64,000 nucleotides of DNA from contig JAUSAG010000036.1 in assembly GCA_030652995.1 (NCBI GenBank), forward strand, positions 76,349 to 140,348, in the 5' to 3' direction. Shown here piece by piece: positions 38,536 through 57,502 of this stretch (positions are counted from its first letter, which is position 1; every line of letters begins with the position of its first letter). The notes under the pieces were generated by a model. The model saw only the letters and a program-made list of their open reading frames with translations. It had not been told where the DNA came from and ran no database searches. The position numbers and the translations under genes were made by a program. The DNA is from Methylotenera sp. Its GTDB lineage: Bacteria; Pseudomonadota; Gammaproteobacteria; Burkholderiales; Methylophilaceae.

Positions 38536-39372
38536 CTATTTATTACGAATAAATTCAATTCTTGCACCATCACTCTCGCTCAAGCTGAGTGCGGCACCTT
38601 CATTGGCGATGTCGCCGAATAACGGGTCTTCGTCATCAGCTTTGGCTTGGCTTAGATTTTTGAAATCATATAAATTAACATCAGCCAAGTGAGATGGCTC
38701 TACATTGGTAATTGCACGGAAGATATTATTGATGCGTCCAGGCTGCTCGCGCTCCCAGCTTTGCAGCATATCTTTTATTTTTTGGCGCTGCAGATTTTCT
38801 TGGCTACCACACAAATCGCACGGGATAATTGGAAACTCCATTTGACGCGCATAGCTGGCAATGTCTTTTTCACTACAATAGGCAAGTGGGCGAATCACGA
38901 TATTTTGCTTATCGTTAGTAGAAAGCTTAGGTGGCATGGCTTTCATTTTGGCGCCAAAAAACAAATTCAAAAATAGCGTTTCTACAATGTCATCACGATG
39001 ATGACCTAAAGCAATTTTGTTTGCACCAAGCGCTTTTGCTGTGGTGTAGATTACGCCACGACGTAAGCGTGAGCAAAGCGAGCAAGTGGTTTTGCCTTCA
39101 GGAATCTTTTCTTTCACGATCGAATAAGTGTCGGCTTCAACAATGCGGTAATCGATGCCTAGCTTTTCAAAGTAAGCTGGCAAAATGTCTGCAGGGAAAC
39201 CTGGCTGCTTTTGATCTAAATTCATCGCAATTAGCTTGAAGTTAATGGGTGCGCGCTCCTGTAAGGCTAGCAAAATCATGAGCATGGCGTGCGAGTCTTT
39301 ACTTATTAGCATAACTCCATAAGCTAATCTTGAAAAAAATACTATAAAATCATATAGAAAACTAATATTCAT
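38536..39372 (-). pseudogene. ttcA: 3' part of the chromosomal ttcA, cut by the integrated element
   Basis: The reading frame holds 278 codons. From codon 25 ([18 protein letters not shown]) to the end it is TtcA, the enzyme that thiolates cytidine 32 of tRNA, with Cys pairs CSLC and CDLC that hold the iron-sulfur cluster. The first 24 codons (39301-39372) are not TtcA and come from the inserted element, so the N-terminal PP-loop glycines are missing. The lost part lies 18 kb away at 57357-57502. Joining the parts gives a normal protein of about 301 residues. The frame remains open and could be translated from an element-borne ATG, but without SGG it should not bind ATP. Confidence 0.93.
39296..39315. 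repeat. Left attachment junction of the 18-kb element
   Basis: TCTTT (39296-39300) is shared with the right junction. Inside it, after ACT, comes TATTAGCATAAC (39304-39315), which matches the inverted complement of the right arm at 11 of 12 bases. To the left the sequence is chromosomal ttcA. A second inverted GCTAAT lies at 39322-39327, possibly a further recombinase site. Confidence 0.88.
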
Positions 39373-39423
39373 GTTTACATAATAATATAAATGTTAACTT
39401 TATGCACATTTTAAGCTCAATCT

Positions 39424-39642
39424 TTACATTAGTTGTGATTTAAAGTTTACTTGAAATATTAATTTCTTATTCTTGCACTGACCTAATGCAAATACATCCC
39501 ATCTAGCAACAGGTATCCAGTGTAATGGTCCCATATATGCAAAACCCTTGCCGAATTCTAGCCTAAATTTGGATATGTAATCTATAAGCCCAAGTTCAAC
39601 ATCTCGTTCAACGGCATCATGGGCAATTGTGCAACGGCGCAT
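39424..39642 (-). pseudogene. Fragment of a DUF1016 (YhcG-type) nuclease gene
   Basis: A 72-codon open frame whose residues ERDVELGLIDYISKFRLEFGKGFAYMG resemble the conserved part of DUF1016 PD-(D/E)XK proteins. Downstream of that the expected catalytic segment is not recognisable. No start region of the family precedes it. It seems to be a leftover piece of a defence-type gene inside the element. The assignment rests on a short match. Confidence 0.45.
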
Positions 39643-39801
39643 TGCACAATTGCAAGATCACTCCAAAAATTAACTACCATCAAAATTGATAATTAAAACT
39701 AATCCGGCAGAAATATCCGCATAGCTGACGGCCAGTTTAAATTTGAAATACACTACAACGGCCTCAAGTGAACGCTGCAGTTAACCTTGATTTTTACAGT
39801 T

Positions 39802-40131
39802 TCAGTGTCCTGAACTGGAAAAAACATTCATCGTTACGACCCCAGCGATAATTAGACCAATGCCAATAAGTGCGGGAATATCTAGTTTCTGACCAAAAAA
39901 TCCCCAGCCAATAATAGTAATCAGAACAATTCCTACGCCTGACCAAATTGCATAAGCAATACCGACTGGAATCGAGCGTAAGGTTATTGAAAGAAAGTAA
40001 AATGCTATTCCATATCCTATTATCACAACCGCAGAAGGAATTAGTTTCGTAAAGCCTTCACTTGACTTCAATGCCGCAGTAGCAATGGTTTCTGCAACAA
40101 TTGCTGCACCTAATATTAACCATTTGTTCAT
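39802..40131 (-). CDS. Small multidrug resistance (SMR) efflux protein, EmrE/QacE type
   Basis: A 109-residue protein with four membrane segments and the SMR core: the essential glutamate E14 in [40 protein letters not shown] and a final [11 protein letters not shown]. It acts as a dual-topology dimer exchanging protons for cationic compounds or, in the Gdx/SugE subgroup, guanidinium; the ALKSSEGFT stretch fits the multidrug EmrE subgroup better. First cargo gene after the left end, probably a single transcript. Confidence 0.88.
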
Positions 40132-40270
40132 CTAATTTCCCAATATAAAATACATCTCAAGGCGTCAGATTATGACTTTATTATTGTATGCTGCACAGTC
40201 TAGACAAAAGCTTTAGCTTGTGGGCAAATTGCAGCACAAGTCGCATGCATCATTCATGTAACATCTCAAA

Positions 40271-40302
40271 ATATAAAAGGCCGGAATTCCGGCCTTTTAT
40301 AT
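40271..40302. terminator. Perfect 32-bp palindromic terminator
   Basis: The 32 bases are a perfect palindrome with core GGCCGGAATTCCGGCC flanked by A runs on one side and T runs on the other. It stands 11 bases past the stop of the beta-propeller gene and would act in both directions. Confidence 0.9.
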
Positions 40303-40313
40303 TGTTTTATCAA

Positions 40314-42269
40314 TTAACGAATTGAAATTGGAACCAATGTCCCGGCCTTCATATCGGGCATCAGTATCGTTCTACCATCGGCTGATAAGTTAATGTCTGC
40401 TGACGACTGATTTCCTTCGCTAATCAATTGCGGAGTCGCCTTGGGTTCGCTTAATTGCCAAACTTTGCCGCCAGCCCAATCGCTGATGTAGAGTACACCG
40501 CTAGGATCACGTATCAAACCATCAGCAGCACCAAAGCCTTGATTCAGCAGCGTCAAATTAGACTTAACTTTGCCGTCTTGTTCAGAATAGTCTATGCGGA
40601 ACAGTTTTCCTGTACCAAAGTCTGCAACCAATAATGCATTGGGGCCATCCATTAATAAACCATTTGGGCGTTTTATGCCGGATTTATCGCTGATGAGTTG
40701 CACCACTTGCCCTTGAGACGTAATCTTGTAAATGGCAGCATGTTTACCATTATCTTCCCCGCTATCGGATACATACACGTTGCCTAAGCCATCGATTTCA
40801 ATGTCATTCAGAAAAACTGGTTTGCTCTGGAAATCTGATGGTTTTGCAATTACCGTTTTATTACCTTGCAGATCAATACGTACTACCTGATCCATATCTG
40901 CAACATACAGCTGATTATTGAACATATCGATTCCTTTTGGATCATTCAAACCATCAGCTAATGTAGATTTTGAACCGTTAGCATTAATCACAGTCACCTT
41001 ACCGTCACCGCTCTTGCCGAATTCACCGATTTCCGTAACAAATATACGCCCATCCGGATGGGCAATCGAAGACTCAGGCATTTTCAAACCCGTTACAGTG
41101 CCAAGTGCTGTAGCAGTAGCTGGTGCTTTAGCGTCAGCATTACCTTCGCCATAACTAACGCGGTAAATCACGCCGTTGTAGTCATCAGATACCAGCAATG
41201 AGCCATCAGGCAATTGCAGCACATCCGTTGGGCGTCCCCAGATTTCGCCATTATTCAACCAGCCATCAATGAACACCTCAGTTCCAGTCACGCGATGCTG
41301 GGCGTCGAATTTCACCTTCATCAGTTGATAACCAACCGGCTTGCTGCGATTCCATGACCCATGTTGGGCGACAATTGCGCTACCTTGGTATTCCTCAGGA
41401 AACTGTTTACCACTATAGAATTTAAAACCCAGGTTGGCGCTATGCGCCTGAAACTCAGCTGCCGGAAAAACGACATTCTTTGGTGGTGTTTTATCTTTCA
41501 ACTGCGGGGAACGAGCGTCACCGCCAGCGTAGTAAGGAAAACCGAAGTGCTGGCCTGCTTTGACCGCTGCGTTTAATTCGTCATGCGGGATATCGTCGCC
41601 CATCATGTCGCCGCCGTTATCGGTGAAATAGACCACATTGGTGTCTGGCTGAAAATCGACACCTACCGAGTTGCGAACGCCTTTTGCAAAGGTTTCTACG
41701 TTACTGCCATCCGGATCCATTCTGATGATAGAACCTTCAATCCCTTTTGTTTCACAAATATTGCAAGGCGCACCCACTGTTACATATAGCTTGTTGTCCG
41801 GACCGAAAGCGATATATCGCCAGCCATGGTGAGCCTTATTCGGCAGCTTGTCATAGATGACTTCGCGCATTTGCTTGAATGGCAGTGTCAAATCAAAATC
41901 TGGCGCAGCATAACGTGTAATACGGTTCTGTTCTGCCACGTACAGGTTACCCTTGTACATCGCCACACCATTACCAATGTTCAAATCGTCTAATATGGTA
42001 ATTACTTGATCTGCTTTGTGATCTTTGTTCTTGTCAACGACTGCATAGACCTTATTGCCACGCGTGCCGACATATATATTTCCATTGGTACCTAATGCCA
42101 TTTGGCGTGCATCTGGCACATCCGCATAGACTTCGATTTTAAAGCCTGCAGGGACGTTTAATTTACTTAAATTCGCCTGGGCATCTGCTGCTTCAGCATA
42201 AGTATTTAGCGATACCGCACTAAATGCTGTTCCCAGCATGAATGCAAGTAGGTTTAATTGCACTTTCAT
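40314..42269 (-). CDS. Periplasmic sugar/sorbosone-dehydrogenase-like double beta-propeller protein
   Basis: A 651-residue secreted protein with signal peptide (about 1-26). The first half (about 35-370) is a six-bladed propeller of the PQQ-dependent glucose/sorbosone dehydrogenase kind, with AHHGWRYIAFGPDNKLYVTVG, RNSVGVDFQPDTNVVYFTDNGGD and QHGSWNRSKPVGYQLM. The second half (about 390-650) is an NHL/SMP-30-like propeller with repeats such as DPKGIDMFNNQLYVADM and KRPNGLLMDGPNALLVADF. If it is a PQQ enzyme it would oxidise a sugar or aldehyde in the periplasm. It is divergent from an araC gene and on the same element as pqqA. The substrate is unknown, and PQQ use is inferred. Confidence 0.72.
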   Translation of the reverse strand: MKVQLNLLAFMLGTAFSAVSLNTYAEAADAQANLSKLNVPAGFKIEVYADVPDARQMALGTNGNIYVGTRGNKVYAVVDKNKDHKADQVITILDDLNIGNGVAMYKGNLYVAEQNRITRYAAPDFDLTLPFKQMREVIYDKLPNKAHHGWRYIAFGPDNKLYVTVGAPCNICETKGIEGSIIRMDPDGSNVETFAKGVRNSVGVDFQPDTNVVYFTDNGGDMMGDDIPHDELNAAVKAGQHFGFPYYAGGDARSPQLKDKTPPKNVVFPAAEFQAHSANLGFKFYSGKQFPEEYQGSAIVAQHGSWNRSKPVGYQLMKVKFDAQHRVTGTEVFIDGWLNNGEIWGRPTDVLQLPDGSLLVSDDYNGVIYRVSYGEGNADAKAPATATALGTVTGLKMPESSIAHPDGRIFVTEIGEFGKSGDGKVTVINANGSKSTLADGLNDPKGIDMFNNQLYVADMDQVVRIDLQGNKTVIAKPSDFQSKPVFLNDIEIDGLGNVYVSDSGEDNGKHAAIYKITSQGQVVQLISDKSGIKRPNGLLMDGPNALLVADFGTGKLFRIDYSEQDGKVKSNLTLLNQGFGAADGLIRDPSGVLYISDWAGGKVWQLSEPKATPQLISEGNQSSADINLSADGRTILMPDMKAGTLVPISIR

Positions 42270-42426
42270 ATTTACTCCTTGTTATCGAAACTAGACCAAT
42301 AGTAGTTTACTGAGGCAATGAGATTTTTTGAATACATAAAACTCCTTATTTATTGCCTAAAACTATTTATAAATATGAATTTATAGTTGATATAATATAG
42401 TTTTGTAACCTAAATATATAATTTTT
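42270..42426. promoter_or_regulatory. Divergent promoter region, propeller gene and araC
   Basis: A 157-bp AT-rich interval between two divergent genes. GGAGT precedes the propeller gene start. Near 42390-42400 TATAATATAG offers a -10 for the araC gene. It is the natural place for the AraC protein to bind, but I see no clear direct repeats that would define its operator. Confidence 0.4.
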
Positions 42427-43380
42427 ATGACTAAGATGAACTGCTGGCAGGAGTCCGATCAAAGCGACATATGCGACCTCCTTAAGCGTTTGGCGCCGAC
42501 TGAAGGCTTTACTCTCACCCCTTTAGAAGGTGTGAAGCTCATGCGCTGGAACCGCTCTTTGCCGCGCAGTCCGGTTTTATATGAACCAAGCATCGTGGTG
42601 ATTTGCTCAGGTCGTAAAATTGGTTATTTAGGTCAAGAAGTTTTTCATTACAACCCGCAGCATTTTTTGGTGCTGTCGGTTCCACTGCCGTTTGAAAGCG
42701 AAACGATCGCCAGTGAAGAAGAGCCTTTAATGGGTATTTCGATTCGCATTAATATACCCATTCTCTCCGAGCTGATCTTGATGCTTGATCAAGGGTCTTC
42801 CCATTCTGAGCTTGGAACTCATGGGATGGTATCCACCCCATTGGATGCTAAGCTTTCTAATACAGTACTAAGACTGTTGCAAGCATTAACTTCGGCTAAC
42901 GATACGGATATTCTTGGCCATTCAATCTTGCGGGAGATTCATTATCGGGTTTTAATCAGCAATCAAGGTGAAGCTATTCGCGCATTACTAAGCCAGCAAA
43001 ATCACTTGGGTAAAATCAGTAAGGCCTTGCGAAGGATACACTCTGATTTTGCAGATGATCTTAACGTCGCGAAACTGGCTGATGAAACCGGGATGAGTTT
43101 GGCTGCCTTTCATGCCAGTTTTAAAGCCGTGACTGCAACATCTCCAATACAATATCTGAAAACAACGCGGTTACATAAAGCCAGGTTACTCATGTTTCAA
43201 GACGGTACTTCAGCAGCGCATGCTTCCGCTAAAGTTGGCTATGAGAGTCCTTCACAATTTAGCCGTGAATTTAAACGACTGTTTGGTAAAACCCCAATGG
43301 AAGATATGGCTGCTATGCGAGAATCACTCATCACATTACCCTTCGACCCGGCTTCTAAATATGTAACCGTTCAGCCGTGA
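42427..43380 (+). CDS. AraC family transcriptional regulator (AraC_N type)
   Basis: A 317-residue regulator. The N-terminal half is the cupin-like AraC_N domain (SPVLYEPSIVVICSGRKIGYLGQEVFHYNPQHFLVLS at about 48-84, PLPFESET). The C-terminal 100 residues have two helix-turn-helix units, DLNVAKLADETGMSLAAFHASFKAVT and AAHASAKVGYESPSQFSREFKRLFGKTP. AraC_N proteins often control nearby oxidoreductase genes; here the divergent neighbour is the propeller dehydrogenase, which is its likely target. Confidence 0.88.
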   Translation: MTKMNCWQESDQSDICDLLKRLAPTEGFTLTPLEGVKLMRWNRSLPRSPVLYEPSIVVICSGRKIGYLGQEVFHYNPQHFLVLSVPLPFESETIASEEEPLMGISIRINIPILSELILMLDQGSSHSELGTHGMVSTPLDAKLSNTVLRLLQALTSANDTDILGHSILREIHYRVLISNQGEAIRALLSQQNHLGKISKALRRIHSDFADDLNVAKLADETGMSLAAFHASFKAVTATSPIQYLKTTRLHKARLLMFQDGTSAAHASAKVGYESPSQFSREFKRLFGKTPMEDMAAMRESLITLPFDPASKYVTVQP

Positions 43381-43504
43381 AGAGGAGCTTTGTCCCATAT
43401 TCTGCTTAATCCGCAAAGCGGACTACCAAAACTCAAACTTTGTGGACTTTTAGGAAGAGTGGACAGAATCTTGGTGCTTTACAACTTATATCAACAGACA
43501 AACT

Positions 43505-43530
43505 AAACCCGATCAAAGATGGTCGGGTTT
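43505..43530. terminator. Terminator between araC and the SnoaL-like gene
   Basis: AAACCCGA (43505-43512) and TCGGGTTT (43523-43530) form an 8-bp stem with a 10-base loop between two convergent genes. T-rich sequence follows on the plus strand (ATCATTTTG). Confidence 0.6.
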
Positions 43531-43568
43531 ATCATTTTGCAGAATGCTGCACTAGTCTCTTGAGGAGT

Positions 43569-44027
43569 TTAATTGCCGGCGTTCCAAATGTGAGTGCGAG
43601 CTACCCACTTACCATTTCCATCTTTCTTAAAAACACTAGTCGTAATGCCGCTGTAAGTGACTGTTACACCATCCTTTTCAGCACCACTAGCGCTCCACTT
43701 TGCGACCTGATATAGCGTTTCATCATCACCATCAACTGTGACGATCTCCAATTGATGATTCTTCAAACCTGCTTCAAAAAAACTTTTAAATAAATTCTGA
43801 ATCTCTGCACGTCCAGTCAGAACTTTGCCGTTGCCTGGGGAAAGTACAGCGTTTTCTGCATATAAACTCGCAAGTGAACTCGCATCTGAATTATTAAAGG
43901 CTTTATTCCAAGTATTGTTTAATGACTCTACCGTTGTTTTGGCAGTCATTTCTTCAGCAAACGCAATACTTGTTGTTACAAGGCTAAAAGTTATTATCGC
44001 GAGTGTGTTTTTAATCAGTGATTTCAT
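43569..44027 (-). CDS. Secreted SnoaL/DUF4440-like protein
   Basis: A 152-residue protein with a signal peptide (about 1-24, ending SIAFA) and an NTF2-like domain of the SgcJ/EcaC or DUF4440 kind: LNNTWNKAFNNSDASSLASLYAENAVLSPGNGKVLTGRAEIQNLFKSFF, then a beta-sheet ending THIWNAGN. Members bind small molecules or act as isomerases; the function of this one is unknown. It lies convergent to the araC gene. A GGATTACCCC stretch before the start is the possible ribosome region. Confidence 0.78.
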   Translation of the reverse strand: MKSLIKNTLAIITFSLVTTSIAFAEEMTAKTTVESLNNTWNKAFNNSDASSLASLYAENAVLSPGNGKVLTGRAEIQNLFKSFFEAGLKNHQLEIVTVDGDDETLYQVAKWSASGAEKDGVTVTYSGITTSVFKKDGNGKWVARTHIWNAGN

Positions 44028-44561: not shown

Positions 44562-44580
44562 TTCCTCAGCGGAATTCACA

Positions 44581-44602
44581 AAAGGGAGCTTATGCTCCCT
44601 TT
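44581..44602 (+). terminator. Terminator of pqqA
   Basis: AAAGGGAGC (44581-44589), loop TTAT, and GCTCCCTTT (44594-44602) form a perfect 9-bp stem followed by GTCATTTC, 19 bases after the pqqA stop. Confidence 0.8.
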
Positions 44603-45677: not shown

Positions 45678-46340
45678 TTAAATAGCAATATCTAGTATTG
45701 GAACTGGATCATTTGCACCATTTGGAACACATGCAGCAACTGATGCAGTGATTCTGCCTGCAGTAATATCGCCATCATCTAATTTTGAATCAATAGTGCG
45801 TACTGTGTCGCATGATAGGTTATTTATCTGTATTTCGTTTATTACAGATACTGGCAGGGAGCCTGCAGCTCTACGAGCTGTAATAAATACATCAGCCACA
45901 TTGGAATTATTGCTTCTGGTGAATATCCCATTAATCGTGCCTTTAATCATTCCAGCACGCACTAGATGCTCAGCTACACACCCGACTTCTGTGGCTGTAT
46001 CAATGCGGCCATTGCCTATTGATGCTGTATTTACTGCAAGGCTGCAACCAGCACTTACATTAGGAATATCATCACCGGCCAGAGGTAAGTCACCAGGTAA
46101 ATAGTGATACTTATTTTTAAAGCTGGAAGCTGCATCATTCAAGTCTTTAATTAAAGCAATGGTATCTGTAGTTTCTGAATTACCTATTAATGAGCTGCTG
46201 CGTGATGCTACGAATCCTAAGATTAAGCCAATTATCATTACGACAATGGCCATTTCTATTAATGTGAATGCTTTGAAAGCTTTCAATTTATTTAACGATG
46301 ATTTCTTTAACAAAAATCGTGACTGATAATGCAGCGCCAT
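45678..46340 (-). CDS. Prepilin-like protein with type IV N-terminal methylation motif
   Basis: A 220-residue protein. The leader (about 1-24, basic) is followed by the processing site AFTLIEMAIVVMIIGLILGF (about 24-43), with Ala in place of the usual Gly before the cut. A secreted domain begins with ETTDTIALIKDLNDAASSFKNKYHYLPGDLP, typical of GspG/PilA-like pseudopilins, and has four cysteines. The start overlaps the upstream 62-residue gene by 53 bases; later TTG starts near 46313 are possible. No secretion or pilus assembly genes are on the element. Confidence 0.75.
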   Translation of the reverse strand: MALHYQSRFLLKKSSLNKLKAFKAFTLIEMAIVVMIIGLILGFVASRSSSLIGNSETTDTIALIKDLNDAASSFKNKYHYLPGDLPLAGDDIPNVSAGCSLAVNTASIGNGRIDTATEVGCVAEHLVRAGMIKGTINGIFTRSNNSNVADVFITARRAAGSLPVSVINEIQINNLSCDTVRTIDSKLDDGDITAGRITASVAACVPNGANDPVPILDIAI

Positions 46341-46476
46341 AAGACATAAGTGCTGCCCATAGTGCTAACTTAACTAGACCAATGGTTGTTAGCAATACAC
46401 TACTTGATAGGGCGAGTACCCAAATTGAAAGCATGAAAAATGCTGGCGTTAAAATTAGTGCTAATTTGAAATTCAT
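46288..46476 (-). CDS. Small hydrophobic protein between two prepilin-like genes
   Basis: A 62-residue protein that is nearly all membrane sequence in two segments (about 5-30 and 33-57), ending VKEIIVK. It starts 15 bases after the stop of the upstream prepilin gene and overlaps the next. No family is recognised. The in-operon position supports a real gene, perhaps helping to handle the prepilins. Confidence 0.5.
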   Translation of the reverse strand: MNFKLALILTPAFFMLSIWVLALSSSVLLTTIGLVKLALWAALMSYGAALSVTIFVKEIIVK

Positions 46477-46491
46477 TGAATAACTCCAAGT

Positions 46492-47586
46492 TTATGGACA
46501 AGTGTTTTCTATAATTTTTTTATATTTACCATAGAAAGTTACTATGGTTGGATAATTCATAACCCTTCCAATGGTAGATAATGTGTATGGATTAATAGCT
46601 GCTCCAGGTGTTGTGTCGCCATCACTCTTTAAGCGCGTTATGACTTGAACATAAGTAATTGGATCTCCCCACGGATTAACTAAATTTATGTTGTTTGCTA
46701 TCAATAAATTATTAAAATCCCCTTGAGTTGCTGGCGGATTACAATTTACTGTTCCTGGGTTTAACATAAAGCTTGCTAGAGCATCATTGATACTTTCAAC
46801 TTGTTCAGCCCACTGCGCCTCTGTGGATTTAAGAGAACCATCTTTAACCAATGGCGCTAGTATTTCAGTAGGACTTAATCTTAATAAGACGTCATCAAAA
46901 CCACCATATACAGCCACATCAATATCAGTATATTCACGATGGTAAAATGTAGCAGGAACTGCAAATCCTGCAGGGACCGCATTTGCAAGTTCATCTGTCC
47001 CGGCAACTGGCAGGTTTGTCTGCGTGCCTTTATTGGTGAATGCGCCTAATCCATTATGACCATGTGAGATTACTATTGCAGCATCATTGCCAAGAGGAGT
47101 TGCCACCGGATTAGTTGCAGGTGTTCTGGTACTAACTGGCAATGCCCCGGCATCGCCGGTATTAAAGGCAATGCCTGGATTACTTGATGAAGTGGCAGTA
47201 ACTACGTTTGCATAAGCCAATGTCCACTGCGGTGAAACGGCATATGAAAATATATTTTCCCATCCATCAAGTGCAGCACTTTTTGGTAAATTTAGCGCTC
47301 GATAGGGCAATAATCCAAAATATCCGGTGCATATGCTTGGTACTGCACCGTTATTTGCTTCAACCCCATTTTCATTGATGGCAGGGCATGGTAGGCGTTT
47401 ATTGGTTCCAAGATACGCGATTAAAGCATCCTTAATCACTTCCTGCTTCTTTTTGGTATTACTGATGCTAGAGCTTGCAAGTAGGGCATTTGCAGCTGAT
47501 AACCCCATTGTGGCTAGAATCCCTATTAAAAAGACCACAACGGCCATTTCTACAAGAGTGAAGCCTGGCTGGTATTTCGTTCGCAT
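46492..47586 (-). CDS. Large prepilin-like protein
   Basis: A 364-residue protein. The start chosen at 47586 gives a short leader MRTKYQPG and then FTLVEMAVVVFLIGILATMG, the classic type IV prepilin cleavage and stalk helix; the frame extends to 47625 but GGGGT just before 47586 favours this start. The long secreted part contains GTNKRLPCPAINENG near 80, found in large prepilin-type N-terminal cleavage/methylation proteins, and many Asn/Gly/Thr. First gene of a three-gene unit with the two genes below it. Its role is unknown; it would need the host's pilus or secretion system. Confidence 0.72.
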   Translation of the reverse strand: MRTKYQPGFTLVEMAVVVFLIGILATMGLSAANALLASSSISNTKKKQEVIKDALIAYLGTNKRLPCPAINENGVEANNGAVPSICTGYFGLLPYRALNLPKSAALDGWENIFSYAVSPQWTLAYANVVTATSSSNPGIAFNTGDAGALPVSTRTPATNPVATPLGNDAAIVISHGHNGLGAFTNKGTQTNLPVAGTDELANAVPAGFAVPATFYHREYTDIDVAVYGGFDDVLLRLSPTEILAPLVKDGSLKSTEAQWAEQVESINDALASFMLNPGTVNCNPPATQGDFNNLLIANNINLVNPWGDPITYVQVITRLKSDGDTTPGAAINPYTLSTIGRVMNYPTIVTFYGKYKKIIENTCP

Positions 47587-48005
47587 ATTACCCCTATAAA
47601 ACTGACCTAGATTTGAAGCACACATTTATCTACTAATATTATGCAGTAATTTTAAATAACGTTGCAAACTAGTTCTTCCTGTAGCAATTTCGGTAAATTA
47701 AAGGCAAGTATGAATATCTGGTGCACTACATCGTTATCAAAAAATAATATTGATATAAATAGCTAAGGACAACTATTGGCTGGCTGCTAATATTGACGTG
47801 CCAAATCTGTATGGGACTTTGTCCCGCTAATTTGCCGAAGGCTTATAAATCCCCTTAGCTGACGGTCGAAAAATACGCTGGGACTTCATAAGATTTAGAA
47901 CATACTCGCTCGTAATGACATCGAAATTAAACCTAAGAATCGTCATAATGAGCTAATGACATGTGCTAGAGGGTTTGAAGATGTAGCAATGAATCATAGG
48001 TATCT
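47587..48005. other. Non-coding interval upstream of the nuclease-ttcA operon
   Basis: About 420 bases without a supported gene. It holds copy C of the dispersed sequence (47845-47870) and AT-rich DNA serving as leader for the prepilin operon on the minus strand. Confidence 0.4.
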
Positions 48006-48058: not shown

Positions 48059-48083
48059 AAAAATCATCGACCAGGAATCAAGC

Positions 48084-50720
48084 ATGGCAGTAAGTAATGA
48101 ACTAACAAAACCAGAAAATGAAAGTGATTTTGAGGCGATGTGTCATGCTCTATACCGTCGGATGTGGAATGACTCCTCTTGCAGCAGAGTGGGAGGCCCA
48201 GGACAGTCCCAGTTCGGAATTGACATCCTCGGCCACGATGGCAAAATAAATGTAGGCATCCAGTGCAAGCACTACAACAAAAAGACGTTCACCCTGTCAA
48301 CCGTAACGGATGATGTCGCTCTAGCAGATGCTGTCGGCCTAGATATTGGCCATATGCTATTCGCGACAACTGCTGCGAACAAGAGCAAATTGGTGCTGGA
48401 AGTTCGTAAGCAGTTTCATGCAGTGCGTGCAGCGATTAACCAGGTCATAAATGCATCGCGTCCAGATGGCAATCATAAAGGCGGCGTAGTCTGGCATACG
48501 CAAGGCTCAGGCAAGAGCATTACCATGACATGCTTTGCAGCGCGTGTCATGACTGAAGCTGCAATGGAAAACCCGACCATTGTTGTGATTACTGACCGTA
48601 ACGATTTAGACGGTCAACTATTCGGCGTATTCTCGCTCTCGCAGGACTTGCTACGTGAGCAGCCAGTACAAGGTGAAACGCGCCAAGATTTACGTGCAAA
48701 GCTAGCCAATCGTCCTTCCGGCGGTATCGTGTTCGCAACCATTCAGAAGTTCATGCCAGGCGAAGATGAAGATAGCTTCCCTGTATTATCAGACCGCTAC
48801 AACATCGTTGTAATTGCTGATGAAGCGCATCGAACCCAGTATGGCTTTGAAGCCAAATTCAAGGGCGATGCCAAAGGTTATCAGGTAGGCTACGCTCAAC
48901 ATTTACGTGATGCTCTGCCTAACGCTACCTTTGTTGCCTTTACTGGCACCCCGGTTTCAAGTGAAGACCGTGATACTCGCGCCGTCTTCGGTGATTACAT
49001 CCACGTTTACGATATGCAGCAAGCGCGGGATGATGGCGCTACAGTCGCAATTTACTTTGAGTCACGCCTTGCCAAGTTAGGACTGAATCAAGAAGCGTTA
49101 CCTGAGATTGATGCTGAAGTAGATGAATTGGCCGAAGATGAAGAAGATGACCAGCAGGCTCGCTTAAAAAGCAAATGGGCTGCACTCGAAAGCATTGTTG
49201 GTGCTGCTCCACGCATACAGCAAGTAGCCAAAGACCTCGTTGAGCATTTTGAAGAGCGTAACAAGGCACAAAGCGGCAAGGCTATGGTTGTCGCCATGAG
49301 TCGTGAGATTTGTGTACACCTCTACAACGCGATTACCGAACTGCGCCCGGACTGGCATGATGAAGATCCAGAAAAAGGTGCAATCAAAGTCGTTATGACT
49401 GGTTCAGCCAGCGACAAACCATTACTCAGACCGCACGTATACTCCAAGCAAGTTAAAAAACGCCTTGAAAAACGCTTCAAAGACCCTGACGACCCGCTAC
49501 AGCTAGTCATAGTACGCGATATGTGGCTGACTGGTTTTGATGCGCCGTGCGTACATACGCTGTATGTCGACAAACCGATGAAGGGGCACAACCTGATGCA
49601 AGCGATTGCCAGGGTAAATCGTGTATTCCGCGACAAACAGGGTGGCCTGGTTGTAGATTACATCGGCATCGCAAACGATCTGAAACAGGCACTCAAAGAA
49701 TATACCGCTAGTAATGGCCGTGGCCGACCTACGGTTGATGCTCACGAAGCTTATGCAGTGCTGGAAGAGAAACTCGACGTACTTCGCGCGATGTTGCACG
49801 GCTTTGATTACAGCAACTTTCTATCAGGCGGGCATAGTGTTTTAGCAAAAACGGCTAACCATGTACTCGGCATTAAGGATGGAAAAAAACGCTTTGGCGA
49901 TACTGCGCTGGCAATGTCAAAAGCATTTACTTTGTGCTGCACTTTAGATGAGGCTAAGGCTGTACGTGAAGAAGTCGCTTTCTTCCAGGCAGTGAAAGTG
50001 CTGCTAACCAAAAAAGAAATCAGCATCAAGAAAAAAACCAACGAAGAACGCGACCTGGCAATACGGCAGATCATAGGCTCAGCCGTGGTGTCCGAGGAAG
50101 TAGTCGATATATTCGATGCTGCCGGACTGGATAAACCAAATATTGGTATCCTGGATGAAGACTTCTTAAACGAAGTGCGTAACCTGCCTGAGCGCAATCT
50201 TGCTGTAGAAATGCTGGAACGCCTGCTAGAAGGTGAAATTAAAACCCGCTTCGCTACAAACATCGTGCAACAAACTAAGTTCTCGGACTTGTTAGCTAAC
50301 GTGGTTAATCGCTACCAAAACCGCTCGATCGAAACTGCTCAAGTCATTGAAGAGCTCCTCGAAATGGCCAAGAAATTTAAAGAAGCGGCCGACAGAGGTG
50401 CTGATCTGGGATTGAGTAATGACGAATTGGCTTTCTACGATGCTCTAGCCAATAACGAAGAATCTGTGCGTGAACTAGGCGATGAAACGCTAAAGAAAAT
50501 TGCACATGAACTAGCTGAAAGCTTGCGCAAAAATATAACTGTTGATTGGGCTATTAGGGACAGTGTACGTGCAAGTTTACGCTTGTTAGTTAAGCGCATA
50601 CTGCGTAAATACAAGTATCCACCAGACCAACAGAATGAGGCTGTGGAGTTGGTTTTGCAACAAGCTCAAACTTTAGGTGATGCTTGGGTATATTCAAATA
50701 ACTTTAGTGAAAATAAATGA
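48084..50720 (+). CDS. Chimeric Mrr-like nuclease / HsdR-type helicase
   Basis: An 878-residue protein. Residues 1-109 are an Mrr-like PD-(D/E)XK domain: [29 protein letters not shown] (D47) and GIQCKHY (Q60, K62). From [10 protein letters not shown] (111) it is the motor and C-terminal part of a type I restriction HsdR subunit: Walker A HTQGSGKS (K144), DEAH 246-249, [16 protein letters not shown], and the C-terminal [23 protein letters not shown]. The usual HsdR N-terminal nuclease is missing and replaced. No hsdM or hsdS accompanies it. It overlaps ttcA by 4 bases. It could be a solo defence nuclease or a product of recombination. Its base composition is more GC-rich than its neighbours. 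Confidence 0.8.
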
Positions 50721-51562
50721 ATCAATACAGTTTTAATAAGTTACAAAAAAGAATCCGTAGGGAAACTGGTAAAGCGATAATAGACTTTAACATGATTGAA
50801 GATGGAGATTTAGTCATGGTGTGTCTATCTGGAGGTGCTGATAGTTACACCATGTTGGATACGTTGGTGTATTTTTCTAAAATTGCCCCTATTAATTTCC
50901 AAGTAATTGCTGTAAATCTGGATCAGAAGCAACCCGGTTTTCCTGAAGAAGTTTTACCAAATTACTTAAAAAGTATTGGAGTAGATTTTAGAATTGTTGA
51001 ACAAGATACATATAGCGTTGTAAAAGATAAAATACCAGAAGGTAAAACTACATGTTCATTGTGTTCTAGATTACGCAGAGGTATTCTTTATAAAACAGCA
51101 AAAGATTTAGGCGCCACTAAAATAGCACTTGGGCATCATAGGGATGATATTTTACAAACGCTATTATTAAATATGTTTTATGGTGGCAGTTTGAAAGCGA
51201 TGCCGCCAAAATTGCGATCAGATAATGGAGAAAACGTTGTAATAAGACCTTTGGCTTATTGCGCAGAAAAAGATATAAAGAAGTACTCTGAGATGATGAG
51301 TTTTCCGATAATCCCATGCAACCTATGTGGATCACAACCAAATCTACAAAGACAGGTTATGAAAGAACTTTTAGTTAAGTGGAATAAAGAACATCCTGGA
51401 AGAGTTGAAAACATGTTTAGAGCAGTTTGCAACGTAGCACCTTCGCATCTTCTGGATAGAGAAATGTTTGATTTTTCAACGTTCACTTCGAAATCTAAAG
51501 TTGCATACGATACAGATATGGTTGTGAAAGAAGATTTTAAAACAATTAACTTTGTAGATTAG
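50717..51562 (+). CDS. ttcA: Element-borne complete TtcA with altered PP-loop (SGGADS)
   Basis: A 281-residue tRNA 2-thiocytidine synthetase. It keeps every feature of TtcA: PP-loop at 38-43, Cys pairs C113/C116 and C201/C204, and [20 protein letters not shown] and RPLAYC motifs. The PP-loop is SGGADS, whereas the interrupted chromosomal copy has SGGKDS; the general PP-loop rule is SGG-any-DS, so ATP binding may survive. The altered codon (GCT, 50837-50839) is exactly where the element inserts in the target gene. Start ATG overlaps the stop of the upstream nuclease gene (ATGA). AT-rich codons with frequent AGA arginine show an origin different from the resident copy. It probably replaces the function lost on insertion. 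Confidence 0.92.
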
Positions 51563-51984
51563 CCGGTTTGATTTTTCGTATTGTCTGGTAAAGGGTCATT
51601 TAACAAGTGATTACCTTTTTCAATCAGAGAAACGTTGTATATCAACTGTGTATGCCTATGCAATAGGGTTTCATATTTAGTAGTTAGCTCTGCTAGTTCA
51701 GATTTAAGGCTTTGGATATTTTGTTCATATTCATTGATAGATTTTGGATTGGTTTTATGTGCATTACGACTTTCTTTTAGACGCCTTTTCGCTTCGTTAA
51801 ACGATATGTGAATGTTCTCGTTTCGTGAAAGTGATTGGCGGGACCAGGTTGAGTCACCCTTTTTAAGAGTCTTTTCCAAATGCACCCTTAGGTCCTCCCA
51901 TGATAGTAATTTACTAGCTGGCCATTTACGCAATATCTGAAGTATTTCGTTTTCGTCTTTTATGGAAATCTTCTTAGCACCCAT
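51559..51984 (-). CDS. Small coiled-coil accessory protein of the recombinase module (srap/TnpC-like)
   Basis: A 141-residue basic protein. The first half ([32 protein letters not shown]) looks like a DNA-binding helical domain; residues about 88-125 form a coiled coil ([27 protein letters not shown]). It ends in a 4-base convergent overlap with ttcA and starts 2 bases after the stop of the 808-residue recombinase. In Tn554 a small helical protein (TnpC) and in SEs a protein called Srap occupy this place. The likeness is one of size, place and shape. Confidence 0.65.
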
Positions 51985-51986
51985 AT

Positions 51987-54413
51987 CTATTCCTTGCTAC
52001 ATTCACAATTTTCGACTCTTAGTTTATTGGTTAATTCTGAAACGCTGAATGAACCAGTAGGCGCAGAAAAAGTAACGATAGTACCAACTTTCACAGACGC
52101 ATCATTTTCAATAGCAAGTATTTGCTCACAACGTTCTAATGTGTCCTTGAATTGTTGTAAGTATTTCTTAACTGGGAGGTGCCCATTCCCTTCGGCTATT
52201 TTATAGTTAGCTTGTTCAATCATGTGAATGGAGTAATTCCGCATGTCATGAATTATTGGTAATCTTTTTTTATCACCTTTTTGCCACACTGATTTATTGC
52301 ACCGCATGCAGTCACCGAACATCTCGCATGGATTAATTGACCAATCACTTCTACACCCTCCTACTTCAGTGATGTGCTTTGGCGCCGCATTTTCATATAG
52401 AAATATTTTTCGTGCTATAACTTTTACTTTTGGAGGAGCTTCTAATGCGACTGGGCCGATTACGTTAAAATCAACATCAGGATCAAAAGTTTCTATAGAT
52501 TGTGAAATTATTTCGTGTGGGGTGCGAAGGTCGTAATGTTCTGATTGCTTTCCATTTTTCCTACCGGCTAATTCATCGATAAATTTTTCATTTGCACCAG
52601 CTAATAATGCTTCTGTTTGATGATACTTTCTAGTTTTATGTAGAGTTATCGATGGGTATGATCCATCGCTCAATCGAATATTAAGATTGAAAAATAATTT
52701 AGCAGGTCCTTGGTTATATTGGCTAAGCCAAGCATTAATGACTTGTCCTGAGAGTGCCTCAGGACGCCACCATTGAGCTATCTCGTTGCCTGTGCCAATG
52801 CCTTTTGTATTATCTGGTAAGAATGAAACTAAAAGTGCGTTATCAAGTTTTGTCGATTTATCTTTTGAGGTGTACGGCCAATGCATAAATTTGCTTTGTT
52901 TAAATTGCATTAATAAAAAATTATATAGGTCTTTAGATTTGATATAGCAACCTGGTTTAAGCGAGGCGCTAAAAATAGGATGAGATATTTTTAGATGGCT
53001 GTGTCCTTTTCCAATATACTTTCTGGCCATTACGCAAGTTATATATTTAGTCTTATCAATATTTTGAGGCATATTTATGCTTAACTTATATTTTTGACTA
53101 GCTTTCTCGAACTCGTCAATCCGAATGTAAGGAGCGTTATGTTTTCTAAAATTTTTGCTTACAAGATTAGAAATGTCATTAGGTTCTTTTATAAAAATAT
53201 GTACTGATAGTTTTGCTAATCGACTTGGGAAGTAATAGTAGGGAGAGTCTGGGCATGCTAGAACAAAAAGTACATCTTCTTTTGATAAATACTCCTTATT
53301 AAAAATATCTCTTAGGTGTAAGGGGATATATAGCTCGTTTACTTCTGAAAATGAGTTTGGAAATTTCGCTAGATAAAATTTAAATGCTTCATGTGCACCT
53401 TGTGAAAAATGCAGTATGTTTTCAAACATTTCCTTGGCTAAGTTTGATAGCTTGTGAGGTATCGGCAGGTTCTGTGATTCATCAATTTTAGGGCGCGTTA
53501 ATCTAATTCGAGTACGCTCTTTATTATCTTGGTCACTATAAAGTGCATCTCTACTTAATAGTAATGTTTCTGATATTCTCATTGAGACAGTTGTAAAAGA
53601 AAGCCCACAAATAGAAGCCATAAAGCTTGTCTTGCTTATTCCGCCATCTATATCAAGAGATTTGAAATAGGCTAAGCCAACGGCAGCAAGTTCCTCATTA
53701 GATATTCGTGATGAGGCTCTTTGATTAAATTCACTATCATCAACAGCGATAGCTTTTTTGCGCGATTTAGCTTGTATATCGGATACGAAAGAGAATGGTT
53801 TGTCTAGAAGATTAAATCCTTTGCCAGAAAATCTGAACGTCTTGGTGTGGTGTCCAGACTGTAACATTCCAGCAAGAGTTTCTAGTTCTTTGCCGGTGTC
53901 ATACTTGATGCCTTGGCTGTAATTACTCTCTTGAATACATCTTAAAGCTTGCTGGAAGGTGATGAGTTTTATTTGGTTAAGATTATTGCTGTCGCAATTT
54001 AATACTCGCAGCGCTTTTTCAAGATAAATTAAAGCCAGTGAGATGCATTTTGGTTTTGACCTTAGGTTTCTGTAGAAAATCATTACGTTGATATAAGCTT
54101 TTGCAAACAATAAGTAGTTTTTGCTTGTGATGAAGTTATCTGCGTCAAGCAATCTTGTTGATAGTTTAGTCGTAGATAGTAAGCCATCTTTTAGAAACTC
54201 TTGTTTGAGAAAAAATGATTTTGTTGAGTCGTGACTGTGAGGAATGAAACGTGATGAGTACTCAAAATATGGAAGTTCTTTTTCAAAGGTATCTGCATGG
54301 ATGTTGTTAATATTTGCCGTACCAAATGGTAAACCCCAGTTGATGAATTTTTCAAACCTATCTAGAACATCCAGCTCGGAATGGACAAGGAATAAAGGTA
54401 AATTCTCAGCCAT
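51987..54413 (-). CDS. Large tyrosine recombinase of the element (intB-like)
   Basis: An 808-residue protein. The C-terminal half carries the tyrosine-recombinase residues: box I arginine in MRISETLLLSRD, box II HKTRKYHQTEALL (H-x-x-R-x-x-H) and a tyrosine nucleophile in KQSEHYDLRT about 40 residues later. A cysteine group follows (GGCRSDWSINPCEMFGDCMRC), suggesting a zinc-binding site. The N-terminal 250 residues are unfamiliar and probably bind the arms. The start overlaps the preceding gene by 8 bases. It corresponds to IntB of SE-type elements or to TnpB of Tn554. Confidence 0.8.
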   Translation of the reverse strand: MAENLPLFLVHSELDVLDRFEKFINWGLPFGTANINNIHADTFEKELPYFEYSSRFIPHSHDSTKSFFLKQEFLKDGLLSTTKLSTRLLDADNFITSKNYLLFAKAYINVMIFYRNLRSKPKCISLALIYLEKALRVLNCDSNNLNQIKLITFQQALRCIQESNYSQGIKYDTGKELETLAGMLQSGHHTKTFRFSGKGFNLLDKPFSFVSDIQAKSRKKAIAVDDSEFNQRASSRISNEELAAVGLAYFKSLDIDGGISKTSFMASICGLSFTTVSMRISETLLLSRDALYSDQDNKERTRIRLTRPKIDESQNLPIPHKLSNLAKEMFENILHFSQGAHEAFKFYLAKFPNSFSEVNELYIPLHLRDIFNKEYLSKEDVLFVLACPDSPYYYFPSRLAKLSVHIFIKEPNDISNLVSKNFRKHNAPYIRIDEFEKASQKYKLSINMPQNIDKTKYITCVMARKYIGKGHSHLKISHPIFSASLKPGCYIKSKDLYNFLLMQFKQSKFMHWPYTSKDKSTKLDNALLVSFLPDNTKGIGTGNEIAQWWRPEALSGQVINAWLSQYNQGPAKLFFNLNIRLSDGSYPSITLHKTRKYHQTEALLAGANEKFIDELAGRKNGKQSEHYDLRTPHEIISQSIETFDPDVDFNVIGPVALEAPPKVKVIARKIFLYENAAPKHITEVGGCRSDWSINPCEMFGDCMRCNKSVWQKGDKKRLPIIHDMRNYSIHMIEQANYKIAEGNGHLPVKKYLQQFKDTLERCEQILAIENDASVKVGTIVTFSAPTGSFSVSELTNKLRVENCECSKE

Positions 54414-55956
54414 TTTGTTCTTTGATACTAGAAATTACAGAACTGACGGCATCAATAAGGTAGTCATCTCTTGTAATAGCCTCAAGAGGAAGTTTCAGTT
54501 TTATTAATTTTTTCTTTTTGGAAAGTAAGCTATCCAGAACGGCCTGATGCGCCCCATCTTTAAATGCTTCAAAACGCGGACAAATATAACATCCAAATGG
54601 GGTAAGTACATTGCATGGCTTAGTCGAGCAAGATCCAACATCTTTATCGATATCTGGATCTAAAATCCGGTGGTCTAGATCAGGATTTGTTGAGAAGTTT
54701 TTGTTAATTACTTTACCTCTGAATGCTGATAGTAAGTTCTCATGATGGCTTGATAATTGATTTTCATAATTAACGAAAGCCTCTTCAGTTAAATTGACAT
54801 AATGTGTTAGTGATCCAGTGGACGTTTGAAATCCAGCCCTTGCTAAAACCTCTAGAGGCGCACCTAACATCGCTAAATGGGTTAGTTTCGTATGTTTAAA
54901 CCTTCTAGTAAATAAGTTTAAATCTTGAGGCTCTTCATCAATACCAGCGATATATTTTCGACTATTCATGATTCGGCTAGTAATATTAATACCATTTTTG
55001 TTTACAAGAACCTGCTTTCCCGCACCTTTTCTTGCAATGCAAAATATTGGTAAAGTACGTTCTGGTTCTTTTTTTGTAATACTCGATATGTATTTTATAT
55101 GCTCTACTACCGCTCTACCAATTGGCTCAGAAAGTGTGTATTCCATCATGTATTCTCGCGCCGGGGTGGCTTTTTGTTTAACTATGGGAACATTAACTTG
55201 AACTTTAACCAAGTTGCCATTTATATCCATATCAATTTTTAGGTCTCCAAATTCTAATAACTGTAATTGCGACGGTCGCATTGCTTCAGAAATAATTAAT
55301 CTCCACATTAAATAATCTTGTGGATTAAATTCACCTGATATGTATAAGCTTTCAACATTTGTAAGGATATTTCTGGTTTGCTGCATACTGAATGGACGCT
55401 CTTGCGGATTGGAATTTTGGATGTTTATAGTGCTTTTGGGCTTGGGTGATTTTGATGATTTTATATAGCTCTTAAGGTCTAAATCAATTCCTGGGATATT
55501 GAGACCAATCCAATACTTTATAAACGATCTAAGCAACTTCTGTGATGAGGGAGATTTATCTTGGTTAAACCAATTAAACATTGCTAAATTGATACAGGAT
55601 ATTTGGTTTGGGACTAATTCTTTTATGACTCTTATAAACATCGAGAATTGATTAATCCAACGTTTAACTGTCGATATTTTTCTTCTTCCATTTAATGCAT
55701 GAATGACGACATAGTAAAAAATGCTACTGGTAGCTTTCGTTAAACCAACTGATAATTGGTTTAGTCTTATACTTGCGTCACCAGCATCTCCCTTTAATGT
55801 CATAAGATCGAAGTTGACATCAATTAACTTACCGCTATCAATCGGTCTGATTCTTTTAGGGAAATCTTCAGGAATAAGTTCATTGGAATAAACTATAAAT
55901 GTGTCATATCCGCTAAATTTATTTGAGGCTGTCAAGGATGCGGTCTCTCTCTTCAA
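54406..55956 (-). CDS. Tyrosine-recombinase-fold protein with altered catalytic residues (tfp-like)
   Basis: A 516-residue protein. Box I keeps an arginine (SEAMRPSQLQLLEF). Box II, normally H-x-x-R-H-T, reads RRFKHTKLTHLAMLG, so the second catalytic arginine is lysine and the first histidine arginine. A tyrosine is kept in SLTHYVNLTEEAF. A cysteine set lies near the C-terminus (CSTKPC and GCYICPRF). The missing arginine suggests an inactive structural member, as described for Tfp in SEs. It overlaps the genes on both sides (8 and 38 bases). Confidence 0.78.
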   Translation of the reverse strand: MKRETASLTASNKFSGYDTFIVYSNELIPEDFPKRIRPIDSGKLIDVNFDLMTLKGDAGDASIRLNQLSVGLTKATSSIFYYVVIHALNGRRKISTVKRWINQFSMFIRVIKELVPNQISCINLAMFNWFNQDKSPSSQKLLRSFIKYWIGLNIPGIDLDLKSYIKSSKSPKPKSTINIQNSNPQERPFSMQQTRNILTNVESLYISGEFNPQDYLMWRLIISEAMRPSQLQLLEFGDLKIDMDINGNLVKVQVNVPIVKQKATPAREYMMEYTLSEPIGRAVVEHIKYISSITKKEPERTLPIFCIARKGAGKQVLVNKNGINITSRIMNSRKYIAGIDEEPQDLNLFTRRFKHTKLTHLAMLGAPLEVLARAGFQTSTGSLTHYVNLTEEAFVNYENQLSSHHENLLSAFRGKVINKNFSTNPDLDHRILDPDIDKDVGSCSTKPCNVLTPFGCYICPRFEAFKDGAHQAVLDSLLSKKKKLIKLKLPLEAITRDDYLIDAVSSVISSIKEQNG

Positions 55957-57241
55957 TTAGCTCTGCAGCTTGATCAATGATGTGTCTTTGGCTATATCTG
56001 GAAGGCATTGTGGAGGTGTTAGCCCATCGGCCACGTTGAATTAAAATGCTTCTTACATCTTTACCTTTTTCATGAGCAATGTTAGCTATCTCAGTTAAGT
56101 GCGTGTGCCTCAAAGAATGTGGTGTAAACCATGTTGGAAATTCTTTTAACGATTTGAGTTTTGAAATAATTCTATTCAAGTTGCGCTGTGAAATTGGTTC
56201 TCCAATACTTGGACCACTTTGGCAAACAAATAGATAAGGATGTTCTTTTATATTAGAGCTTAATGAAATCGCAAGACGTCTTTCATTTGTAATATATTTG
56301 ATTAAATCCGCGGTTAAGTTCTTGCTAACGGCTAGATCCCCAGAAAGAGTCTTAGATAAAGGCTCTTTAGTCCTCGGATCTGCATTATCATTTGGTTTAT
56401 GTCTAACTCTTATTATGTTTATAAATTTGCCAGGACGTATCTCGTAGTTATACTTAATGTCTGCGCAAGTTACTTTAAGGCATTCGCCTGCTCTCAGTCC
56501 AGTTTCATAAAGAAATCTGGCAATTAATTTATCCCTATTACCATGATTGGTATTAGGAAAAATACTGTTAGAGCTAATTGCTTGTAAAAAAGTCGCTGTT
56601 TGATTTGAATCCAAAGAATACACTGGTGCAGGTTTTTTATCTGACTTATAGTTTTTTTCAAAGGCTTCGTAAATTATATTTTTATATTTTTCACTTTTAA
56701 TAAGAGATTTGTCATCTACATTCAGCGCACCTTCAATAAAGTCTTGAGTAAGCCATATTAAATAGTTGCATAAATTTCGTAAACGAGCGTTAGATGTGGA
56801 AATGTCTACTAAAATACCAGATGGAATGCTATGAAGCTTAGGGTTGTCAATTGAACGAATTCTGGCTAACTCTTTAGAAGAGAAGTCGCACCAACCACTG
56901 AATTCATCAATTTCTCTTCTTGTTAATGCAAGTGAATTATTCTTCACCCGTGTTTCTGGTGCTATCCAATTAGGGTTTCTTGATTTTTTTATTAGTGACC
57001 ATTCTAAGTAGAATGCCAAATCTCTAAGGATTGCAAGGTGAGTATTATGGCTTTTTTGGCCTAAATTTCGATAGACATATAAAGTGGGCAACTCACATAG
57101 TAGACCGCTGCGAGTATCTAAAAGTACGGCTCTTCTGACTGAACGTTTGTTAACTCCAGAGCCGATATCTTCGATAATAATTCTTGTTTGCGCTGTAAGG
57201 TTTTCAATCATTAAATGTTTACATAAAATACATATGCTCAA
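55919..57241 (-). CDS. Tyrosine recombinase of the element (intA-like)
   Basis: A 440-residue site-specific recombinase with a complete active site: arginine in ETGLRAGECLKV, HSLRHTHLTE (H-x-x-R-H), tryptophan in GRWANTSTM and the nucleophilic tyrosine in PSRYSQRHI. A SAM-like core-binding region lies at about 60-190. The start may be ATG 57241 or ATG 57211; neither has a clear ribosome site. It is the first gene of the module and lies about 100 bases from the right end, as expected of an integrase that cuts its own end. Confidence 0.9.
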   Translation of the reverse strand: MSICILCKHLMIENLTAQTRIIIEDIGSGVNKRSVRRAVLLDTRSGLLCELPTLYVYRNLGQKSHNTHLAILRDLAFYLEWSLIKKSRNPNWIAPETRVKNNSLALTRREIDEFSGWCDFSSKELARIRSIDNPKLHSIPSGILVDISTSNARLRNLCNYLIWLTQDFIEGALNVDDKSLIKSEKYKNIIYEAFEKNYKSDKKPAPVYSLDSNQTATFLQAISSNSIFPNTNHGNRDKLIARFLYETGLRAGECLKVTCADIKYNYEIRPGKFINIIRVRHKPNDNADPRTKEPLSKTLSGDLAVSKNLTADLIKYITNERRLAISLSSNIKEHPYLFVCQSGPSIGEPISQRNLNRIISKLKSLKEFPTWFTPHSLRHTHLTEIANIAHEKGKDVRSILIQRGRWANTSTMPSRYSQRHIIDQAAELIEERDRILDSLK

Positions 57242-57331
57242 ATATATTATAAGGCATAATTTTATTTTTTTTAATATAAATTTTATTTAAACTTAACATC
57301 ATGATTATATTATATTTATTTATATTAAAGA

Positions 57332-57502
57332 TTACATTGTTGTTGTTGTGCTAATATCTTTTCCGCCACTCATGCACACCAGTACAGTATCGCCTTCTTC
57401 TATCATGTTGTAATCGCCAATGGCTTTGCCGGTGGCGCTTATTAAGCTATTTCTAAGCTTGATGAAGTTGTTGGAATGGTTGAGTGGTAAGTGTTTTATC
57501 AT
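57332..57502 (-). pseudogene. ttcA: 5' part of the chromosomal ttcA, cut by the integrated element
   Basis: Starting at ATG 57502 the frame reads [20 protein letters not shown], then [26 protein letters not shown], the N-terminal 49 residues of TtcA up to its PP-loop. After the aspartate it enters element DNA (ISTTTTM) and stops at TAA 57334-57332. It begins 26 bases after the stop of the pteridine reductase gene, so ttcA was the next gene in that operon. The matching remainder is at 38536-39300. Confidence 0.95.
57345..57361. repeat. Right attachment junction of the 18-kb element
   Basis: GTTGTGCTAATA (57345-57356) is the inverted complement of the left arm with one mismatch, followed at once by TCTTT (57357-57361) shared with the left junction, and then by the chromosomal 5' part of ttcA. 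In a circular form the two arms would face each other around an 8-base spacer TCTTTACT, the usual shape of a tyrosine-recombinase core site. Confidence 0.88.

Follow-up and report, generated by a model that had tools for sequence, protein, structure and literature searches.

The 64,000-nucleotide stretch of Methylotenera sp., a bacterium growing on one-carbon compounds, analysed here as a whole and referred to as the window (GCA_030652995.1, contig JAUSAG010000036.1, positions 76,349 to 140,348), contains an 18,056-bp element which interrupts the chromosomal gene ttcA on the minus strand, inside the GGN-AAA-GA codons of its PP-loop. The element itself carries a second, complete TtcA gene, here called ttcA2, beside a four-gene recombinase operon resembling the ginABCD operon of GInt islands. 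We consider it likely that a GInt-type island cuts the PP-loop of ttcA and brings along a replacement TtcA as a fixed backbone gene, free of the short core at which the island is inserted. We read ttcA2 as a replacement because it is found in all six copies in which ginC is assembled, is strongly constrained, lacks the core and is the sole full-length TtcA there. The original prediction, which had described split and element from the letters of the window, missed ttcA2, whose complete presence probably turns gene loss into gene replacement.

The TtcA gene of the element

ttcA2 (50717–51562, plus strand) encodes a TtcA of 281 residues with the PP-loop SGGADS and the cysteine pairs CSLC and CNLC, and it runs convergently to ginD with a 4-base overlap. 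Its product is 62% identical to the host TtcA over the shared part and reaches 470.7 bits against the TtcA equivalog profile, where the cut-off is 272. SGGADS, CSLC and CNLC are invariant across three divergent copies of TtcA2, which thus shows the profile score, the SGGxDS motif and the two cysteine pairs of TtcA, the tRNA 2-thiocytidine-32 synthetase. The gene sits at the same place in the six copies with an assembled ginC, namely those of the window genome (G000) and of G010, G036, G522, G442 and G439, being identical in the first four, 97% identical in G442 and 93% in G439. In each of these genomes, the only other TtcA sequences are two fragments and, in some, weak PP-loop relatives.

The ratio of nonsynonymous to synonymous change (dN/dS, from our own Nei-Gojobori count) amounts to 0.026, 0.035 and 0.015 for ttcA2 in the three pairs formed by G000, G442 and G439, compared to 0.11–0.21 for ginA, ginB, ginC and ginD, with ginC taken from one pair only owing to stops in the G442 gene. 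With dS of ttcA2 above 1 for two of these pairs, single ratios are rough. ttcA2 is under strong purifying selection, four to eight times more constrained than the gin genes. Between G000 and G442, synonymous change reaches 0.69 in ttcA2 versus 0.19–0.32 in the gin genes and clusters within the first 400 bases of the ttcA2 gene, pointing to an exchange of this portion. Aligning window positions 50717–51562 with positions 4826–5671 of the G442 locus L055, these first 400 bases are 83–84% identical, while the remainder and the gin genes are mostly 89–98% identical. The GC content of ttcA2 (34%) is close to that of the gin operon (36%), compared with 47% in the neighbouring cargo open reading frame (ORF) and 44% in the flanks. 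Upstream of ttcA2, consensus promoters were found nine times with 5.6 expected, not clearly above chance.

The same G442 locus displays a ginC with two in-frame stops (L055, 6096–8519), while ttcA2, ginA, ginB and ginD are open. Judging from these frames, the G442 island is possibly immobile yet keeps the replacement gene; G442 is a metagenome-assembled genome (MAG), in which a sequencing fault in ginC is possible.

The PP-loop of ttcA2 reads GGA-GGT-GCT-GAT, so the core bases are absent. Among 62 chromosomal TtcAs, a non-random set made up of 34 element-free members of the genus plus 28 others mostly chosen for a good match to TtcA2, the core GGN-AA[A/G]-GA is present in 59, and the other three read SGGADS. 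The original prediction had placed the cut in the most conserved catalytic codons; high conservation of these codons holds, whereas the lysine is replaceable, as those three genes demonstrate. They belong to G840 (L093/L115), G805 (L102/L116) and G690 (L103/L117) and occupy two separate places in the tree. The G840 protein groups with TtcA2 (support 100/96 in a midpoint-rooted tree in which the G840 branch is long), and its contig carries housekeeping-like ORFs and no gin match. We therefore abandoned the idea that the element recoded the gene to gain immunity: with SGGADS also present in chromosomal genes, one of them adjoining TtcA2 in the tree, the residue was probably inherited. The source of TtcA2 was most likely a lineage already devoid of the core, SGGADS being compatible with a retained chromosomal gene.

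Insertion borders and movement of the element

The 5′ part of the host gene (57362–57502, minus strand) extends from the start codon at 57502 through the second glycine of SGG. The 3′ part (38536–39295, minus strand) continues from DSHAM onward, with 39296–39300 completing the lysine and aspartate codons, and scores 407.7 bits against the TtcA equivalog profile over profile positions 52–279. The coordinates given originally are correct, in that the first 49 codons run from 57502 into TCTTT at 57357–57361 and the remainder from 39300 down to 38536. Clean rejoining at the shared TCTTT, likewise claimed before, is borne out as well, since the motif is present at both borders and the joined frame reads CMSGGKDSHAML. 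At the border next to ginA the core is TCTTT (57357–57361), and at the gin-distal border it is TCTTT followed by a variable sixth base (39296–39301; A in the window). Just inside lie the inverted arms CTTATTAGCATAAC (39302–39315, gin-distal) and GTTGTGCTAATA (57345–57356, ginA-proximal). These are recognisable in all eight genomes in which both ends could be read, with a few base changes in divergent copies.

In the original prediction the arms would frame, in a circular form, a classic core site with an 8-base spacer. The inverted arms are confirmed, while a length of eight is not established: spacers of 5 to 8 nt all fit, because the sole difference among otherwise identical copies is the sixth base of TCTTTN at the gin-distal border, and because the ginA-proximal border reads ACTTTG in G439 (L056) and G445 (L085) instead of TCTTTN. 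From the latter, the first core base may be assigned to the arm of the element, with possibly fewer than six bases in the exchanged core. The sixth base at the gin-distal border is A in four and G in four of the eight copies and is unlike the base at the other border in six of eight. As a footprint of the previous host it is suggestive only, the close relative G023 carrying GGC in place of the GGA of the window. All eight elements sit on AAA, versus 23 of 34 unbroken genus sites, but the independent events are too few to claim that the core is preferred with AAA rather than AAG. Insertion occurs in the same codons in 8/8 copies and is hence site-specific. When the split gene was examined for decay, dS was saturated or undefined in most comparisons.

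At window positions 38536–39372, an ATG and about 24 codons contributed by the end of the element precede the 3′ part of ttcA in the same frame. The split 3′ part therefore remains an ORF of 278 residues, without the SGG of the PP-loop.

Among 52 genus genomes, seven have a split ttcA (G000, G010, G034, G036, G439, G442, G445), and in the other 45 the gene is unbroken, with one match starting at residue 5 and reaching at least residue 244. An eighth copy of the element is found outside the genus in G522, a MAG named Methylophilus sp. The joined TtcA was additionally sought in 21 relative loci from 19 genomes (G014 and G032 were each tested twice), and every one gave a single match of 299–307 columns; the short-chain dehydrogenase gene is also present in 19 and the start of topA in 20 of these loci, both names coming from the earlier description and from reading the sequence. 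In the relative G023, ttcA is unbroken and its product is 99% identical to the joined TtcA of the window.

Comparison with Methylotenera mobilis 13 (G036) gave 18056/18056 identical positions inside the element, compared with 712/899 and 680/949 columns in the alignments of the two flanks. Against G522, two overlapping stretches covering the element were identical (3482/3482 and 15361/15361), with similarity of about 70–80% beyond the border. For G010, one side agreed at 14082/14082 positions and the other at 553/554, where the sixth core base is the single mismatch; 39855–43274 lay outside the comparison. For G034, the assembled ends alone matched at 499/500, 216/216, 722/722 and 115/115. The borders are thus exact, and the element moves between species, including one of another genus. 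The earlier claim of a mobile unit, drawn from the recombinases, is thereby supported through identical copies at the same ttcA site in other species and another genus, next to the unbroken gene in 45 genus genomes.

An assembly error or a one-off rearrangement might be suspected, since the window genome is assembled in 48 contigs and the parts of ttcA lie on different contigs in G010, G034, G442 and G445. However, the same split with the element in between is present in the single-contig genomes G036 and G439, which rules out an assembly error, and also on one contig each in G000 and G522. Moreover, 18,056 bases are identical at the same site in other species between diverged flanks. We regard the chance of such an artefact as practically nil. 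The single-contig element of G439 spans 30,027 bp, while the ends of the G442 element are on separate contigs.

Among 399 genomes of the order, a GinC search matched three, the window's own and two weak ones, and among 187 family genomes it matched six at 1e-30. In plasmids, 50 records matched GinC, none with at least 60% identity and none covering 80% of it; viral contigs contained neither GinC nor the joined junction. Across 369 genomes of the class, the split was seen only in the window genome among the TtcA matches listed.

Replacement weighed against other readings

We propose a model in which the recombinases of the island, which encodes three recombinase or recombinase-like proteins and a small auxiliary protein, would use the short core on GGN-AAA-GA of ttcA. 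Any TtcA gene with those codons would offer a site, and insertion would cut the host gene in the PP-loop. As expected from the family, excision and integration by GinA to GinD would proceed through a circle, GInts being characterised by a circular intermediate and by a need for each of the four gin genes. TtcA2 is probably active and would replace the lost enzyme; if expressed, it would supply the modification lost with the split gene, and we infer that the host is rescued in this way. Lacking the core bases, ttcA2 should not serve as a target for the island that carries it.

Several observations weigh against this model. G034 and G445 have both element ends in ttcA, while ttcA2 and a close ginC are both absent from their assemblies; we read this gap as missing contigs and count it neither way, but a real absence would speak against a fixed replacement gene. 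Conservation between divergent copies extends only about 13 bases upstream of ttcA2, and for this reason its promoter may be derived from the cargo. The split 3′ part keeps an open frame in all seven genomes checked besides the window, which fits a recent insertion, yet also leaves room for some use of the 3′ part. With SGGADS in three of the 62 chromosomal TtcAs, absence of the core from ttcA2 does not have to reflect adaptation on the part of the element. Finally, the exact direct repeat comprises five bases, TCTTT (four, CTTT, in G439 and G445), and becomes longer only by counting weak matches, in contrast to the imperfect direct repeats of 10–17 nt reported to flank GInts (PMC5385486).

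ttcA2 could also be ordinary cargo picked up by chance, in a host that does without TtcA or with little of it, so that cargo and target agree by coincidence. GInts are described as capturing diverse genes (PMC5385486), and Rac in E. coli shows a cell surviving a ttcA altered by insertion (PMC4632033). Against this stand the identity of cargo and target as the same gene, the position of ttcA2 beyond the cargo boundary, towards the recombinase genes, in each of the six ginC-assembled copies, its retention while other cargo is replaced and its constraint relative to the gin genes, so that we judge coincidence improbable, though not negligible. Less probable still is another job for TtcA2, be it thiolation of another tRNA or a function in recombination or defence, in place of the host enzyme. 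The limited identity to the host protein and the changed PP-loop residue would agree with such a job, whereas the score far above the TtcA equivalog cut-off and the grouping with a chromosomal SGGADS TtcA among housekeeping-like genes argue for TtcA itself. We therefore retain replacement of the host enzyme as the most plausible function of ttcA2.

Going beyond replacement, the island might act as a natural insert-and-rescue addiction, removing a conserved tRNA-modifying enzyme and becoming its sole source via an orthologue immune to insertion. We put this forward tentatively and consider it the less likely outcome. Insertion would take place in catalytic codons which the host cannot easily change; if copy-out leaves no empty site, as reported for strand-biased circularizing elements (SEs) and some GInts, the host could not regain its own gene. 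Cells losing the replacement would pay, and ttcA2 would anchor the island even after recombinase decay, as G442 may show.

Island anatomy and comparison with known systems

All four gin-like genes are on the minus strand: ginA (55919–57241), coding for a tyrosine recombinase (PF00589, 2.7e-13), ginB (54406–55956), whose product scores 172.7 bits against NF041502, below the cut-off of 350, ginC (51987–54413), coding for a recombinase-fold protein of 808 residues with no Pfam or NCBIfam match, and ginD (51559–51984), coding for a small protein. The GInt gene order ginA-ginB-ginC-ginD is found, with products of 440, 516, 808 and 141 residues and a Pfam integrase domain in GinA only. Structure libraries searched by sequence returned PP-loop and XerC-like relatives only. 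The gin-distal end is AT-rich (39302–39461, 79% AT) and alignable to G442 and G439, while the adjoining cargo is not; over 160 bases the AT content is 79, 78 and 76% in three divergent copies.

Within the cargo lie a small multidrug resistance (SMR) family transporter (39802–40131, minus strand; below the curated cut-offs of named subfamilies), a glucose/sorbosone dehydrogenase-like and SMP-30-like protein (40314–42269, minus strand), an AraC-type regulator (42427–43380, plus strand), a DUF4440/SnoaL-like protein (43569–44027, minus strand) and two pseudopilin-like proteins (45678–47625, minus strand, at 45678–46340 and 46492–47625). An HsdR-like ORF (48084–50720, plus strand) covers profile positions 236–672 of 674, and its last codons lie in the backbone and overlap the ttcA2 start. 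It begins mid-profile after a first 100 residues of unrelated appearance; an adjoining hsdM- or hsdS-like ORF was not noticed, and no search was made for one. In G439 and G442, the cargo between the AT-rich end and a point about 13 bases ahead of ttcA2 shows no relation to that of the window at the blastn level and looks, from its translations, like metal-efflux genes. Because the cargo changes in these genomes while the AT-rich end and the ttcA2-gin module stay, the backbone consists of the AT-rich end and ttcA2-ginD-ginC-ginB-ginA, with the cargo in between.

Further gin operons are present in the genus in G023 (L088) and G034 (L091), the former carrying an apparent type I restriction system. 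L088, located beside a gene named ssb from its sequence, matches GinA to GinD in the same order, with E-values of 2e-21, 6e-33, 3e-27 and 8e-7 in a small search space. Within this 19.9-kb stretch no paralogue of any gene in it was found, hence no target copy. Two other gin-like loci are weaker. L089 matches all four Gin proteins and has no paralogues; L090 matches GinB and GinC only and contains a single paralogous pair at a distance from the gin genes.

The original prediction recognised a site-specific mobile unit correctly and missed its GInt-type ginABCD identity. By anatomy, the element fits a GInt-type island, with a ginABCD-like operon, cargo starting near ginD and an AT-rich end, as compared with the published descriptions of GInts. 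Methylotenera belongs to the Betaproteobacteria in NCBI terms. Classification as an SE, with the gene order intA-tfp-intB-srap, or as a separate three-recombinase class would draw on the four-gene layout, the inverted arms and the core base varying between identical copies, all of which resemble the SEs of PMC10214605. However, that study describes tfp-srap pairs in Gammaproteobacteria (NCBI terms) alone and ginC-ginD pairs also in Betaproteobacteria, and the operon is homologous gene by gene to that of the island at the ssb end, a favoured GInt site; we thus hold such a classification for improbable and keep the GInt assignment.

Mobile elements usually limit harm by choosing safe landing sites or by mending the end of the hit gene. 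Here, the codons that are hit are catalytic and highly conserved, and the element arrives with a complete orthologue free of the insertion core. Engineered insert-and-rescue gene drives likewise disrupt a conserved gene where its sequence is constrained and provide a functional copy from which that site is absent. The drives are nuclease-based designs for eukaryotes, and the island would be their natural counterpart, alike in break and site-free copy. It also offers a directly testable case, with one gene, a core of 5–8 bases, the carrier strain M. mobilis 13 and the near relative G023 with an unbroken site.

As described in PMC5385486, GInts insert at gene ends, at 5′ ends where they provide an outward promoter, or in intergenic positions; the authors consider that insertion probably does not fully inactivate the targets, through position or outward promoter. 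Alike are the four-gene operon at one end, variable cargo beside ginD, the AT-rich far end and site-specific insertion; different are the cut in catalytic codons and the whole replacement gene in the backbone. Previously described GInts reportedly protect their target through position or promoter, whereas this island appears to come with a replacement. Among the titles and abstract beginnings listed from open-licence papers, none shows a GInt in ttcA or one carrying its target, and the word ttcA is absent from PMC5385486 and PMC10214605. SEs share two integrases, a recombinase-fold protein and a small auxiliary gene, inverted arms and a short exchanged spacer, the SE circle being strand-biased with a 6-bp spacer; they are reported in Gammaproteobacteria (NCBI sense), with ttcA absent from the text (PMC10214605).

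The Rac prophage, named in the original prediction as a known ttcA integrator, does use the same target gene in E. coli; according to the passages on Rac in PMC4632033, its insertion makes a TtcA variant, not a broken PP-loop, and no separate replacement gene is mentioned in them for this prophage. The closest known case of an element carrying a homologue of its target is tgl of Tn552-II (PMC12486829), likewise a three-recombinase element, for which the authors propose rescue of the disrupted target. In the passages on it, Tn552-II is a staphylococcal tnpABC element whose tgl retains the att sequence, whereas ttcA2 is without the core, and for ttcA2 constraint and family-wide linkage to the element are shown.

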